DNA from: an uncultured Barnesiella sp.
GTDB taxonomy: Bacteria > Bacteroidota > Bacteroidia > Bacteroidales > Barnesiellaceae
DNA length: 56,444 nucleotides
Direction of reading: 5' to 3'
Assembly (NCBI GenBank): GCA_944320015.1
Contig: CALUFO010000015.1
Location: 1-56,444, forward strand
This document shows, piece after piece, positions 140 to 54,497 of this stretch. The stretch's first letter is position 1, and each line of letters opens with the position of its first letter. The notes under the pieces were generated by a model. That model was not told the origin of the DNA. It saw only the letters and a program-made list of their open reading frames with translations, and searched no databases. The position numbers and the translations under genes were made by a program.

Positions 140-1144
140 CTATTTGGCATGCTCCAGCAAGTACTCGGCGATCTGCACGGCGTTCAAAGCCGCCCCTTTC
201 TTGATTTGGTCGCTCACCGTCCAGAAAGTCAAACCATTGGGATTGGAAATATCGGCACGGATACGGCCCACATATACCGGATCGTGACCCGCTTTTTCCA
301 ACGGCATAGGATATATTCGATTCGAGGGATCATCTTCCAACACGACTCCTTTCGCATGGGCAAACGCCTCGCGAGCCTCGGCCACCGAAACGGGACGTTC
401 AGTCTCCACCCAAATGGCCTCTGAGTGAGCCCGCATCACCGGCACACGCACACAAGTAGCGCTCACCGCAATATCGGAGTGCATGATTTTGCGGGTCTCG
501 TTGTACATCTTCATTTCCTCTTTGGTGTACAAATTATCGGTAAAGACATCGACCTGAGGAATCAAATTATAAGCCAACTGGTAAAAAAACTTCTCCACGG
601 TGGGAGCCTCGCCGGCCACAAGCTGTTCATACTGCTTTTTCAATTCGGCCATAGCCGACGCTCCGGCGCCACTGGCAGCCTGATAGGTAGCCACATGCAC
701 TCTCTTAATATGAGAAATCGATTCAATCGCTTGAAGAGCGACTACCATTTGAATCGTAGTACAGTTGGGATTGGCGATAATTCCACGGGGACGCACAAAT
801 GCGTCGTCGCCGTTCACTTCGGGAACCACCAAAGGCACATCGTCGTCCATGCGGAATGCGCTCGAATTGTCGATCATGATAGCTCCATACCGGGTTATTG
901 TCTCGGCAAACTCTTTTGATGTCCCGGCGCCGGCCGACGTAAAGGCTATGTCCACGCCCTTAAAATCGTCATTGTGTTTCAGCTCCTTGACAACAATCTG
1001 TTTACCTCGGAAGGCATATTCACGTCCAGCACTGCGAGAAGACCCGAACAACAGCAATTCGTCGATCGGGAAATTCCGCTCTTCCAAAACTCTCAGGAAC
1101 TCTTGTCCGACAGCGCCACTGGCGCCCACAATAGCGACTTTCAT
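140..1144 (-). CDS. asd: Aspartate-semialdehyde dehydrogenase
   Basis: Reduces aspartyl phosphate to aspartate semialdehyde with NADPH, the branch point to lysine/diaminopimelate, threonine and methionine; cytoplasmic. The 334-residue protein has the family's usual length. It opens with the nucleotide-binding loop GASGAVG (residues 7-13) and has the NPNCTT active-site segment with the catalytic cysteine at Cys128. The ATG at 1144 is the first codon before the Rossmann strand MKVAIVGA. The gene stands alone on the minus strand, divergent from the antiporter at 1380, with its own TATATTTG element at 1206-1213 and a terminator beyond its stop. Nothing is truncated or odd. Identification rests on the full-length match to the family pattern. 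Confidence 0.96.
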
Positions 1145-1379: not shown

Positions 1380-3533
1380 ATGGGCGGCATTACAGTTCTA
1401 CCTATCGAGAATCCGGTATTGATATTCTTCATCGTACTGGTTATTATCTTATTAGCCCCTATTCTCCTCAATCGTATCCGCATACCTCACATCATCGGGC
1501 TAATCATCGCCGGTATCATTGTGGGGCCCAACGGGCTCAATTTGTTGGCACGAGACAGCAGTTTCGAGATTTTCGGCAATGTGGGGATTCTTTACCTTAT
1601 GTTTCTGGCCGGACTCGAAATCGACATGTATGATTTCAAGAAAAGCAAGAAAGACGGCATCATATTCGGGCTTTACACCTTTCTCGTCCCCATGATTTTG
1701 GGGACGGTAATCAGCTACTATACCCTGCATCTCGACTTGATGACCTCTATCCTACTGGCAAGTATGTATGCGTCGCACACACTCATCGCCTATCCCATCA
1801 TCAGCCGATACGGGATCTCCCGTTGCCGGGCGGTTCCCATCACGATTGCGGGGACTATCTTTACCGTGCTGGGCGCCCTAATCATTTTGGCCGTCATATC
1901 GGGTATGGTGCGAGGCGATCTGACCGAATTCTTCTGGCTCAGGCTGTCGGTCAATATCGCTATTTACAGCGTGGCCATCCTTTACATTTATCCCCGTCTC
2001 ACCCGCTGGTTTTTCAAAAACTTCAACGACAACGTCACCCAATTCATCTTCATACTCGCACTTGTCTTTCTCGCCTCCTACATGGCGCAAGTCATCGGGT
2101 TGGAAGCCATCTTGGGCGCGTTTTTCGCCGGTATCGTTCTCAACCGATTCATTCCCAACGTATCGCCGTTGATGAATCGCCTCGAATTTGTAGGTAACGC
2201 ACTTTTCATTCCCTACTTCCTCATCGGAGTGGGCATGCTCATCGACCTAAGAGTTATTTTCAGTGGTACCGAAACCCTCATCGTAGCCATAAACATGTCG
2301 GTCGTAGCCACTGTGTGCAAATGGCTTGCGGCGTGGTTTACCCAAAAAAGCTGCCGTATGACCAAACTCGACCGACAACTTATCTTCGGCCTCAGTAACG
2401 CGCAAGCGGCAGCGACTTTGGCCGCAGTCATCATCGGCCACGACATCGGACTATTCGGCGAAGAGATTCTCAACGGAACTATCGTGATGATTCTCGTAAC
2501 GTGTATCATCAGTTCGCTCGTCACCGAGAAAGCGGCTCGCCGCATGGTTATCGAAATACAAAACAACGAACCGACAAACTACAAGTCGCCCATACAAAAC
2601 GAGCGGATACTTATACCCGTGGCAAACCCCGACACAATCGAGAACCTCATCAATCTGGCCCTGCTGCTAAAATCGCCCCAGCGAAACTCAACACTCTATG
2701 CCCTGCATGTGACCGACGATGAGAAAAAAAGCAACTTCTTCTCGCAATCGTTACTCGAACAGGCCGGGAAAATAGCCTCGTCGGCCGACACGAAACTGGA
2801 ACCTATCGCCCGATATGACATGAACATCACCAGCGGTATTATCCATACCATGAAGGAGAAAAACATCTCGGAGGTCGTACTCGGGTTACACCGCAAAGCC
2901 AACATCGTCGACACCTTCTTCGGCGCGAAAATCGAGTCGCTGCTGAAAAACACCAATAAGATGATTCTCATCTCGAAGTGTGTCAACCCCATCAACACCA
3001 TTACCCGCATCGTTATCGCCGTTCCCCGCAAAGCCGAATACGAAACCGGCTTCGCCCGTTGGATAGACCGAGTGGCCAACATGGCCAAGCAAATCGGCTG
3101 CCGTGCCATATTTTATGCCTATGCCGAAACGATTCCTTATTTGAAAGCGCGCCTACGAGCCGGACGTTACAATATCCGCAATGAGTTTGAAGTCGTGGAA
3201 AGCTGGGACGACATCCTGCTCCTCGCCAACGTCGTTCTCGACGACGACCTGTTCATTGTCGTGAGCGCAAGACCCACCTCGGTGTCGTTCAACTCCGACG
3301 CCGACAACATACCGGCTTTCCTTTCGAGATATTTCGCCAACAACAACCTAATCGTTCTATATCCCGAGCAATTTGGAACAGCCGAACCTGCACCCTCCTC
3401 ATTTATCGAGCCCCTGTCGCACGACATGCTCAGCCATACCGAGATATTGGGCATCGAAAAGATTTTCCGCCAGCTCATCGCCTATAAAAAACGGTGGACC
3501 CATCGTAACCGCAAGAAAAAGATAGACCTGTAA
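1380..3533 (+). CDS. CPA2-type cation:proton antiporter with USP-like C-terminal half (paralogue 1)
   Basis: Predicted inner-membrane monovalent cation/proton exchanger. Residues 1-400 form about 12 hydrophobic segments with CPA2-family landmarks (IPHIIGLIIAG near 35-45, FLAGLE near 75-80, FGLSNAQAAATLAA near 340). Residues 415-710 are soluble and resemble two tandem universal-stress-protein domains, which in this family act as regulatory modules. The gene is monocistronic with its own promoter. A close full-length paralogue lies at 16578-18710. In the helix where the paralogue reads TAITDSLTLL, this copy reads TIFTVLGALI, so the aspartate is replaced by Val163. That acidic residue is normally part of the ion-binding site, so this copy may exchange by an altered mechanism, act as a channel or sensor, or be inactive (inference). 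The substrate ion cannot be told from sequence. Confidence 0.88.
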   Translation: MGGITVLPIENPVLIFFIVLVIILLAPILLNRIRIPHIIGLIIAGIIVGPNGLNLLARDSSFEIFGNVGILYLMFLAGLEIDMYDFKKSKKDGIIFGLYTFLVPMILGTVISYYTLHLDLMTSILLASMYASHTLIAYPIISRYGISRCRAVPITIAGTIFTVLGALIILAVISGMVRGDLTEFFWLRLSVNIAIYSVAILYIYPRLTRWFFKNFNDNVTQFIFILALVFLASYMAQVIGLEAILGAFFAGIVLNRFIPNVSPLMNRLEFVGNALFIPYFLIGVGMLIDLRVIFSGTETLIVAINMSVVATVCKWLAAWFTQKSCRMTKLDRQLIFGLSNAQAAATLAAVIIGHDIGLFGEEILNGTIVMILVTCIISSLVTEKAARRMVIEIQNNEPTNYKSPIQNERILIPVANPDTIENLINLALLLKSPQRNSTLYALHVTDDEKKSNFFSQSLLEQAGKIASSADTKLEPIARYDMNITSGIIHTMKEKNISEVVLGLHRKANIVDTFFGAKIESLLKNTNKMILISKCVNPINTITRIVIAVPRKAEYETGFARWIDRVANMAKQIGCRAIFYAYAETIPYLKARLRAGRYNIRNEFEVVESWDDILLLANVVLDDDLFIVVSARPTSVSFNSDADNIPAFLSRYFANNNLIVLYPEQFGTAEPAPSSFIEPLSHDMLSHTEILGIEKIFRQLIAYKKRWTHRNRKKKIDL

Positions 3534-21743: not shown

Positions 21744-21815
21744 TAGCCCATAGGAGAATCGAACTCCTCTTTCAAGAATGAAAATCTTGCGTCCTAGCCG
21801 ATAGACGAATGGGCC
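21744..21815 (-). tRNA. tRNA-Glu (anticodon TTC), copy A
   Basis: 72-nt cloverleaf. The acceptor stem GGCCCAT pairs with ATGGGCT (one G-T at the end) and the discriminator base is A. The anticodon arm is CAAGA-TTTTCAT-TCTTG, giving anticodon TTC. The T arm is AGGAG-TTCGATT-CTCCT. The CCA end is not encoded. Identical to copy B at 22160-22231. Confidence 0.95.
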
Positions 21816-22159: not shown

Positions 22160-22231
22160 TAGCCCATAGGAGAATCGAACTCCTCTTTCAAGAATGAAAA
22201 TCTTGCGTCCTAGCCGATAGACGAATGGGCC
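22160..22231 (-). tRNA. tRNA-Glu (anticodon TTC), copy B
   Basis: The same 72 bases as copy A, with the same stems and TTC anticodon. The identity stops exactly at the tRNA ends, so only the tRNA is duplicated. It is first in the tRNA-Glu/rpsT/tRNA-Glu transcript. Confidence 0.95.
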
Positions 22232-52404: not shown

Positions 52405-53727
52405 TCAACCGAGATTAAAGGCTTTCTTCACTACATCTACATAGTCGAGTTTCTCCCAAGTGAACAACTCCACCTCACGCACGACCGGCTCGGTGTTGTA
52501 GTGCGACGTGAAAGTCTTGACCACGGTCTGCGGTTTACGTCCCATGTGGCCATAGGCGGCCGTCTCCTCATAAATGGGATTGCGCAACTTCAACCGCTCC
52601 TCGATGGCTTTGGGGCGCATATCGAAAATCTCGCCCACCCGGCTGGCAATCTCGGCATCGCTCATCGGCACATGCGATTTACCGTATGTATTTACATAGA
52701 TACTCACCGGCTCGGCCACGCCAATGGCATACGACACCTGCACCAGAATCTCGTCCGACACACCGGCGGCAACCAAGTTCTTGGCAATATGCCGGGCGGC
52801 ATATGCCGCCGAACGGTCGACCTTCGAAGGATCCTTGCCCGAGAAAGCTCCTCCGCCGTGACCACCTTTGCCCCCATAAGTGTCGACAATGATTTTACGG
52901 CCGGTCAACCCGGTGTCGCCATGAGGCCCGCCAATGACAAACTTGCCCGTGGGATTCACCAGCAGCACGAGCCGGTCATCGAAAAGAGCCTGCACCCGCT
53001 CGGGCAATTGGGCAATAACCCGGGGCAGCAATACATTTTTCACATCGTTATAGATTGTCTGCAACATTTCCCGGTCGGCAGCGTCTTGCGCCTCGGGCGA
53101 GTCGTCGACCGGTGTCACAAACTCGTCGTGCTGGGTCGACAGCACAATCGTGTGAACCCGCACAGGTTCGTTCTGCTCGTTGTATTCGATAGTCACTTGT
53201 GACTTGGAATCGGGACGCAGGTACGACGTCACACGGCCTTTGCGCAAATAGGTCATGGCCGAAGCCTCGCGGCGAATGGCCGCCAACTCGGTAAGCAACA
53301 GGTGCGACAGATCGAGCGAAAGCGGCATGTAGTTGTCGGTCTCATTGCAGGCATAACCAAACATCATACCTTGGTCGCCGGCTCCCTGCTCCATAGCATC
53401 GGCTCGCTCCACACCTCGATTAATATCGGCCGACTGCTCGTGTATCGCAGAGAAAACGCCGCACGAGTCGGCATCGAATTTATACGAACTTTTATTATAT
53501 CCGATACGATGAATCACACGACGGGTAACCTCCATCAAATCGACATAGGCATTCGATTTAACCTCGCCCGCCAAAACGACCTGCCCGGTCGTCACAAGGG
53601 TTTCGCAAGCAACTTTCGAGTTGGGGTCATACGCCAGAAACTCGTCAAGCAAAGCGTCCGAAATTTGATCGGCCACTTTATCGGGGTGTCCTTCCGACAC
53701 CGATTCCGAGGTAAACAAATAGTTCAT
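52405..53727 (-). CDS. metK: S-adenosylmethionine synthase
   Basis: Makes S-adenosylmethionine from methionine and ATP. 440 residues, longer than E. coli MetK (384) but usual for Bacteroidales, which have extra loops. Landmarks: [15 protein letters not shown] near 11-25, [16 protein letters not shown] at 115-130 and [22 protein letters not shown] near 285-305, all binding ATP, methionine or metal. Its long leader (about 178 bases from the promoter at 53912-53943) contains a candidate SAM-binding aptamer, which would give product feedback. Monocistronic, with a probable terminator downstream. Confidence 0.96.
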
Positions 53728-53789
53728 GGTTTCTCTCTTGAATAAATAATAAACACTTCTTTTTCAAGGAAGAAAGACTGCAATTTCCA

Positions 53790-53797
53790 CAAAAGTA
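53790..53797 (-). promoter_or_regulatory. Possible second -7 element for metK
   Basis: TACTTTTG on the minus strand, 62 bases before the metK ATG and downstream of the aptamer candidate. No -33 TTG at a fitting distance. If used, it would bypass the aptamer. Confidence 0.3.
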
Positions 53798-53841
53798 AAA
53801 ATGATTTTCGATAAAGCCGGCCGGGCGGTGAAAGCCCTGTA

Positions 53842-53895
53842 ACGCAGTTTTAGCATTTTTTTTCGTGGTTGCAAGCAGCCAAATCCTTCCACAGT
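53842..53895 (-). promoter_or_regulatory. Candidate SAM-II/SAM-V-like riboswitch upstream of metK
   Basis: Read on the minus strand: helix strand TGTGG (53889-53893), then a 20-base loop with GATTT (53881-53885) and CTTGCAA, then the second helix strand CCACG (53864-53868), an A-run, then TGCTAAAA (core GCTAAAA at 53848-53854). This is the order of conserved elements in the SAM-II/SAM-V pseudoknot core: P1, GAUUU, UUGC, P1', A-rich, GCUAAA. It starts about ten bases after the predicted transcription start and precedes a SAM-synthesis gene. I could not draw all of the second pseudoknot helix by eye, so the class is uncertain. Confidence 0.6.
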
Positions 53896-53911
53896 TTTTG
53901 CAATTGCGCAG

Positions 53912-53943
53912 CAAAGATAATACACGCCATGTGCAAAAACAAA
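53912..53943 (-). promoter_or_regulatory. Main promoter of metK
   Basis: On the minus strand: TTTG (53940-53943), 20 bases, TATCTTTG (53912-53919). It predicts a leader of about 178 bases that begins just before the aptamer candidate. Confidence 0.7.
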
Positions 53944-54020
53944 TTTTTATGAACAATTTCCGTCCCATTGGGAAAGGCAGAAGTTTACCACAACGGAGAG
54001 CCTCCTCCCCGCCCCGGCGA

Positions 54021-54497
54021 TCACCGCTCCTTCAACCCGGCCAATATCTCGGTAGCTGTCTTGCCCAACACAGGGTGCACCCACTGCGGAGCAATCTCGG
54101 CAAGCGGCTCCATGACAAAAGTGCGTTTGTGCATATAGGGGTGAGGCAATACCAATACATAGGTATCGAGTATCAACCCGTCGTAATCGAGCAAGTCAAT
54201 ATCGATGAGCCGGTCGACATACGTCCCGTCACCCCTGCGGTGTTTTTTACTTCCCAACTCCCGCTCGATGACTTGCACGATATTCAAAACCTCCTCGGGC
54301 GACAATTCGGTATCGACCGCCACCGCCGCATTACAAAAGGTGTGTACCGACTGGTATCCCCACGGAATCGTTTTATAAAACGACGACACGGCAACAACCG
54401 CTCCCACCCGCTCGCCTATCCGGGCGATAGCCTTTTTAATAATCTGCTCTTTATTCCCTAAATTCGAGCCTAAGCCCAAATACACTCGCTTCCCCAT
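54021..54497 (-). CDS. folK: 2-amino-4-hydroxy-6-hydroxymethyldihydropteridine diphosphokinase
   Basis: Transfers pyrophosphate from ATP to hydroxymethyl-dihydropterin, the step before dihydropteroate synthase in folate synthesis. 158 residues, the usual single-domain length. Landmarks: VYLGLGSNLGNKEQ at the N-terminus, SSFYKTIPWGY near 39-49, and the signature RRGDGTYVDRLIDIDLLDYDG near 82-102, followed by LPHPYMHKRTFVMEPLAEIAP. Monocistronic. Two TTTTGCAAAA palindromes lie upstream at 54555-54568 and 54608-54623. Confidence 0.96.
   Translation of the reverse strand: MGKRVYLGLGSNLGNKEQIIKKAIARIGERVGAVVAVSSFYKTIPWGYQSVHTFCNAAVAVDTELSPEEVLNIVQVIERELGSKKHRRGDGTYVDRLIDIDLLDYDGLILDTYVLVLPHPYMHKRTFVMEPLAEIAPQWVHPVLGKTATEILAGLKER

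Follow-up and report, generated by a model that had tools for sequence, protein, structure and literature searches.

How a SAM-II aptamer could control metK when it ends 112 nt before the start codon is the question raised by a locus of an uncultured Barnesiella sp., a member of a phylum (Bacteroidetes) whose mRNAs are described in PMC6847099 as lacking Shine-Dalgarno (SD) sequences, with initiation tuned by mRNA structure. We analysed this locus within its window, a stretch of 56,444 nt, and compared it with metK leaders from the genus and the order. Our favoured answer, which we hold to be likely, is a SAM-II riboswitch that would shut off metK at plentiful SAM, most likely by making the start codon inaccessible.

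The SAM-II aptamer and its metK context

The riboswitch locus lies on the minus strand, where a promoter (53943-53912) is followed by the aptamer, the 112-nt leader and metK. The -33 element TTTG (53940-53943) and the -7 element TATCTTTG (53912-53919) are separated by 20 nt, are both invariant in the nine genus leaders and follow the consensus TTTG/TAnnTTTG given for promoters of the phylum in PMC7366714. A sigma-70 promoter scan found no promoter, whereas the phylum's own consensus does match. Since the pattern TTTG-N19-21-TAnnTTTG occurs ten times in the window and 0.73 occurrences are expected from shuffles, many of the ten are probably real promoters. The gene metK (52405-53727, minus strand) was assigned to methionine adenosyltransferase by Pfam and NCBIfam (TIGR01034, 490 bits), its ATG is at 53727, and folK lies upstream of aptamer and metK in the same direction. 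Other neighbours encode a phospholipase A1 family protein (PF02253; 51429-52259, plus strand), a GHL10 glycosyl-hydrolase-like protein (PF02638; 54795-56324, minus strand) and a YifB family AAA ATPase (TIGR00368; 48539-50080, minus strand). Elsewhere in the window, two tRNA matches of equal score (54.8 bits) lie 416 nt apart on the minus strand (21744-21815 and 22160-22231) and are perhaps a duplicate.

The aptamer proper occupies positions 53840-53898 of the minus strand, where the covariance model RF01726 (“SAM-II long loop”) is matched over its full length (model positions 1-60) with 67.4 bits against a gathering threshold of 44 and an E-value of 6.6e-11 over the window. A sequence-only reading had placed a “SAM-II/SAM-V-like” element at 53842-53943, leaving the strand unstated, and had suggested a covariance search as a check. 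This search thus bore out the SAM-II part of the label; the SAM-V part fell away, as the SAM-V model was not among the six matches that the region 53700-54100 gave at E up to 10. The model of the alphaproteobacterial SAM-II (SAM_alpha, RF00521), which has P1, L1, core P2 and an association with methionine/SAM genes in common with the element (PMC1273637), reaches only 18.8 bits here against its gathering threshold of 36.

All of the elements that had been read from the letters, namely the promoter, TGTGG, GATTT, TTGCAA, CCACG, the A-run and GCTAAA, are found on the minus strand. Their described spacing, promoter and aptamer lying within ten bases of each other, holds at most when counted from the presumed transcription start, since 18 nt separate the -7 element from TGTGG. 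In the covariance-model alignment, stem P1 is formed by UGUGG (53889-53893) and CCACG (53864-53868) with no non-standard pair marked. Between these strands follow L1 GAUUU (53881-53885; 159 of 187 leaders have GATTT here), GGCUGC (53875-53880), which combines the 5′ strand of the outer helix P2a with the linker C, and UUGCAA (53869-53874), which contains the 5′ strand of the core pseudoknot helix P2. The A-run lies between CCACG (53868-53864) and GCUAAA (53854-53849), the 3′ strand of core P2, and CUGC (53844-53847) would be the 3′ strand of P2a, with a U.U mismatch against GCUG. The letters of L1 and core P2 (GAUUU, UUGCA, GCUAAA) are therefore all present in the window; core P2 was judged from the sequence alone because the pseudoknot does not contribute to the score of the Rfam model. 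The window element is an ordinary member of SAM-II (RF01726), secure as to family, with SAM as its predicted ligand. It is also of a known kind, since a few Bacteroides-group occurrences were mentioned in 2005 (Corbino; B. thetaiotaomicron is named in a figure legend, PMC1273637) and “SAM-II long loops” (RF01726) were described from Bacteroidetes and marine sequences in 2010 (Weinberg; PMC2864571). With the latter our element shares sequence and structure model as well as phylum, at a score above gathering and in a metK context.

The window genome carries one SAM-II copy, and SAM-II is present in all nine genus genomes searched. Of 393 genomes sampled from the order, 266 have a match, which exceeds the cut-off in 263. 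Among 139 loci fetched by a SAM-II match, metK adjoins the aptamer in 137; the exceptions are locus L122, for which the wrong flank was retrieved, and L154, where one of the two SAM-II copies of genome G091 (L154:121-179) lies before a metH-like gene, whose score of 175 bits, obtained over a 128-residue fragment, falls short of the whole-protein cut-off. Among 80 loci fetched by metK instead, a regular expression found the SAM-II core in 56 and Rfam found SAM-II in 11 more. The proposal that SAM feeds back on metK in a Bacteroidales genome, made in the sequence-only reading, fits this gene context.

The comparisons below use 187 distinct leaders, 132 from SAM-II matches and 55 from the metK search (regular expression only); tests on leaders have n = 186, one short leader having been dropped. 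As 13 of the 26 metK loci (out of 217) without a core by regular expression do have SAM-II by Rfam, most with inserts, this set leans to compact aptamers. Matches of 71-107 nt, for a model of 60 positions, were seen in L089, L091, L098, L101, L105 and L114, and in the alignments of L087 and L093 the insert follows the P1 3′ strand and precedes the A-run. The last two loci, from a named strain (L087) and a metagenome bin (L093), each carry SAM-I (RF00162) as well as SAM-II, at 2532-2651 (plus strand) and 1048-1130 (plus strand) in L087 and at 819-927 (minus strand) and 1049-1131 (plus strand) in L093. The two riboswitches of L093 stand back to back, flanked on one side by metK and on the other by a gene of opposite direction that, judged by eye, resembles one for an O-acetylhomocysteine/cystathionine-type enzyme. 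According to a 2007 survey, no species had both SAM-I and SAM-II (PMC2258182).

The outer pseudoknot helix P2a

The second pseudoknot helix had been called not obvious in the sequence-only reading, which is accurate for P2a only. Core P2 keeps its letters UUGC and GCUAA in the window, and the outer helix GCUG/CUGC has its internal U.U mismatch in all nine genus leaders. We did not treat P2a as defining, because it is variable in the class, with a 5-bp P2a reported for 60% of SAM-II in PMC6061858, and is absent from the pairs of the Rfam model.

The base before UUGC divides the 187 distinct leaders into two groups, with A in 103 of them and C in the other 84. The three inner P2a pairs can all form in 78 of the 103 linker-A leaders and in 10 of the 84 linker-C leaders. 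After removal of repeats, the linker-A group retains these pairs in 50 of 72 leaders against 38.2 in shuffles (0 of 2000 as high), whereas the linker-C group has them in 9 of 58 against 7.8 (705 of 2000 as high); allowing any shift of 0-4 positions gives 14 of 58 against 13.0 in the latter. Linker-A leaders thus covary in P2a and linker-C leaders, the window included, do not, which sets the window aptamer apart within the SAM-II long loops of PMC2864571. Since the aptamer is an ordinary Rfam member, the suggestion of a “divergent or new variant” applies to the P2a detail and the expression platform only. The element is a variant in its missing P2a and its co-evolving leader, not a new class.

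A leader complementary to its own aptamer

The consensus fold of the nine genus leaders has a G+C-rich hairpin after the aptamer (53823-53838), in which four of the nine have both partners of one pair changed. A stretch between variable ones, CCGGCUUUAUC at 53810-53820 of the minus strand, is identical in all nine. Further downstream, folding and the genus alignment point to three segments that are complementary to the aptamer: UUUUGUGG (53787-53794) to the P1 3′ strand and the following A-run, GCAGUC (53776-53781) to GGCUGC (53880-53875), and UUCUUCC (53768-53774) to GGAAGGA (53890-53884). When the window leader is folded freely, the 5′ half of the aptamer pairs with the leader. Across the genus, these three helices comprise 21 pairs and all 189 cells are paired, against 48-68% when the strands are slid; none of the pairs is changed on both sides in the nine leaders, which hence provide no covariation. 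Taken by itself, the window gives modest evidence: the whole leader folds no better than its shuffles (z -0.72), and 70 of 2800 control stretches from the same window pair with the aptamer as well as the leader does.

Across leaders, pairing with the own aptamer was stronger than in shuffled leaders, with a mean z of -1.89 and p ≤ 0.05 in 88 of 186. The nine genus leaders range from -2.1 to -3.0; z is above -1 in 47 of the 186 leaders and 0 or more in 10. When control stretches from the same locus were used, for 68 leaders, the excess was smaller than against shuffles (median percentile 0.21, Fisher p 1e-7). We also carried out a swap test among 55 dissimilar leaders (species), in which each leader was kept and the aptamers were exchanged. 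Own aptamers gave -21.93 kcal/mol and permuted ones -18.40 (sd 0.37), with 0 of 20,000 permutations as low and negative residuals in 50 of the 55 leaders. Controls with the reversed aptamer, the reversed leader, the promoter stretch and a metK coding stretch had permutation z values of -1.15, -0.67, -1.81 and -0.81, respectively, the promoter stretch being not wholly flat (729 of 20,000). By segment, the signal is strongest in the loop with UUGCA (0 of 20,000), lower in the 3′ part of P1 (183) and lowest in its 5′ part (1349). With foreign aptamers, SAM-II leaders pair no better than 24 metK leaders lacking the regular-expression core (p 0.67), an impure control set as 11 of the 24 hold a SAM-II match; the signal therefore rests on the leader's own aptamer. 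Our computations show that an aptamer and the leader downstream of it are complementary and co-evolve across species.

Start-codon accessibility and mode of control

We calculated how much energy it takes to open the start region (-18 to +9) when the aptamer is present and when it is removed, removal serving as a stand-in for SAM binding. Over 186 leaders, the mean cost is 5.09 kcal/mol with the aptamer and 6.99 without it, being higher without it in 155; the mean difference under the null is 0.44 (p 6e-17), and 62 of the 186 leaders beat all 12 of their shuffles. Among the 55 dissimilar leaders, the cost is below that of the shuffled-aptamer control in 46. Removal raises it by 2.7-6.8 kcal/mol in the nine genus leaders and from 6.90 to 9.56 in the window, where one of 12 shuffles reaches this difference. 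The consensus fold without the aptamer predicts that UUCUUCCUUG pairs with CAAGAGAGAA (53731-53740) just before the AUG, 96.6% of 149 cells being paired against 52-59% when slid, with no two-sided change in the genus. In the free fold the aptamer pairs with the same UUCUUCC, so the aptamer-paired and start-paired folds are mutually exclusive. In silico and across leaders, mutually exclusive aptamer/leader pairings thus alter the accessibility of the start. Direct leader/start pairing taken alone was rejected as a candidate: against shuffles its signal in the class as a whole is weak (mean z -0.45, p ≤ 0.05 in 18 of 186) and not significant in the window (p 0.16).

These results point to what is probably an antisequestor-type translational OFF switch. 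Without SAM, the 5′ half of the aptamer would pair with the leader through GGAAGGA/UUCUUCC, GGCUGC/GCAGUC and the P1 3′ strand with UUUUGUGG, so that the leader, held by the aptamer, could not fold over the start codon and translation would be ON. With SAM, the pseudoknot would lock and release the leader, UUCUUCCUUG could then pair with CAAGAGAGAA and translation would be OFF. For the nine genus leaders, a calculation that omits pseudoknot and ligand energy predicts an advantage of 9.6-17.0 kcal/mol for the free over the aptamer fold, so the choice between folds is probably made kinetically, while the RNA is being transcribed.

A first alternative is an ordinary SAM-II riboswitch that attenuates transcription; many SAM-II elements of proteobacteria, having putative terminators, are predicted to do so (PMC1273637, PMC2258182). 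Terminator-like sites in 9 of 186 leaders against 3.8 expected speak for it, whereas the region 53650-54020 of the window has none and no run of at least four T directly follows the G+C hairpin in any of the nine genus leaders, and we regard attenuation as unlikely here. It is this lack of a terminator-like site in the window leader and the scarcity of such sites in other leaders, together with structure-tuned initiation in a phylum without SD sequences, that led us to propose translational control. Another mode of translational control is similarly improbable in our view: the SAM-II riboswitch would use a different platform, and the complementarity would reflect a constraint on folding or RNA stability rather than a switch. 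The weakness of direct start pairing as a class and the 70 of 2800 control stretches in the window are in keeping with this, whereas the aptamer-specific co-evolution seen in the swap test and its four controls and the difference in start opening with and without the aptamer argue against it. We see hardly any room for a decayed second aptamer of a tandem pair: GTGGAA does occur both in P1 and downstream, but the matches with E up to 10 from the region 53700-54100 include no second SAM-II, and the downstream bases complement P1, the loop and P1/L1 in reversed order. A switch to another ligand, or death of the aptamer, through loss of P2a is just as implausible, for although linker-C leaders lack P2a covariation, L1, UUGCA and GCUAAA are intact, metK is kept and the score is 67.4 bits.

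The antisequestor switch proposed here would differ from the platforms described for this class elsewhere. In metX SAM-II and in SAM-V, P2a directly occludes the SD sequence (PMC6061858, PMC10907184), and a 2024 review counts SAM-II among the direct-occlusion riboswitches (PMC10907184). Our proposal has the translational OFF logic and a SAM pocket of the SAM-II kind in common with these systems, but at metK P2a lacks conservation and it is the released leader that would cover the start, an indirect form of occlusion; with the aptamer 112 nt from the start, direct occlusion does not fit the metK leader. The metA SAM-II riboswitch of Sinorhizobium meliloti (PMC9373788) likewise has its aptamer far from the start codon used and exerts translational control, as proposed here, but it requires an SD sequence in the riboswitch, whereas the phylum considered here does without SD sequences and the helix that we suggest is an antisequestor. 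Among the literature matches listed, which covered PMC2864571 without its supplement, we found no description of an expression platform for SAM-II in Bacteroidota.

Overall, the aptamer itself is one more case of a known family. There is about an even chance that the platform is a previously undescribed, Bacteroidota-wide arrangement for metK, in which the leader's co-evolving anti-aptamer, once released by SAM, would cover an SD-less start and the large linker-C subgroup would have given up P2a. Should the proposed platform prove correct, it would separate Bacteroidota SAM-II from the direct-occlusion and terminator models for SAM-II elsewhere, and would give a concrete answer to how riboswitches can control translation in a phylum without Shine-Dalgarno sequences.
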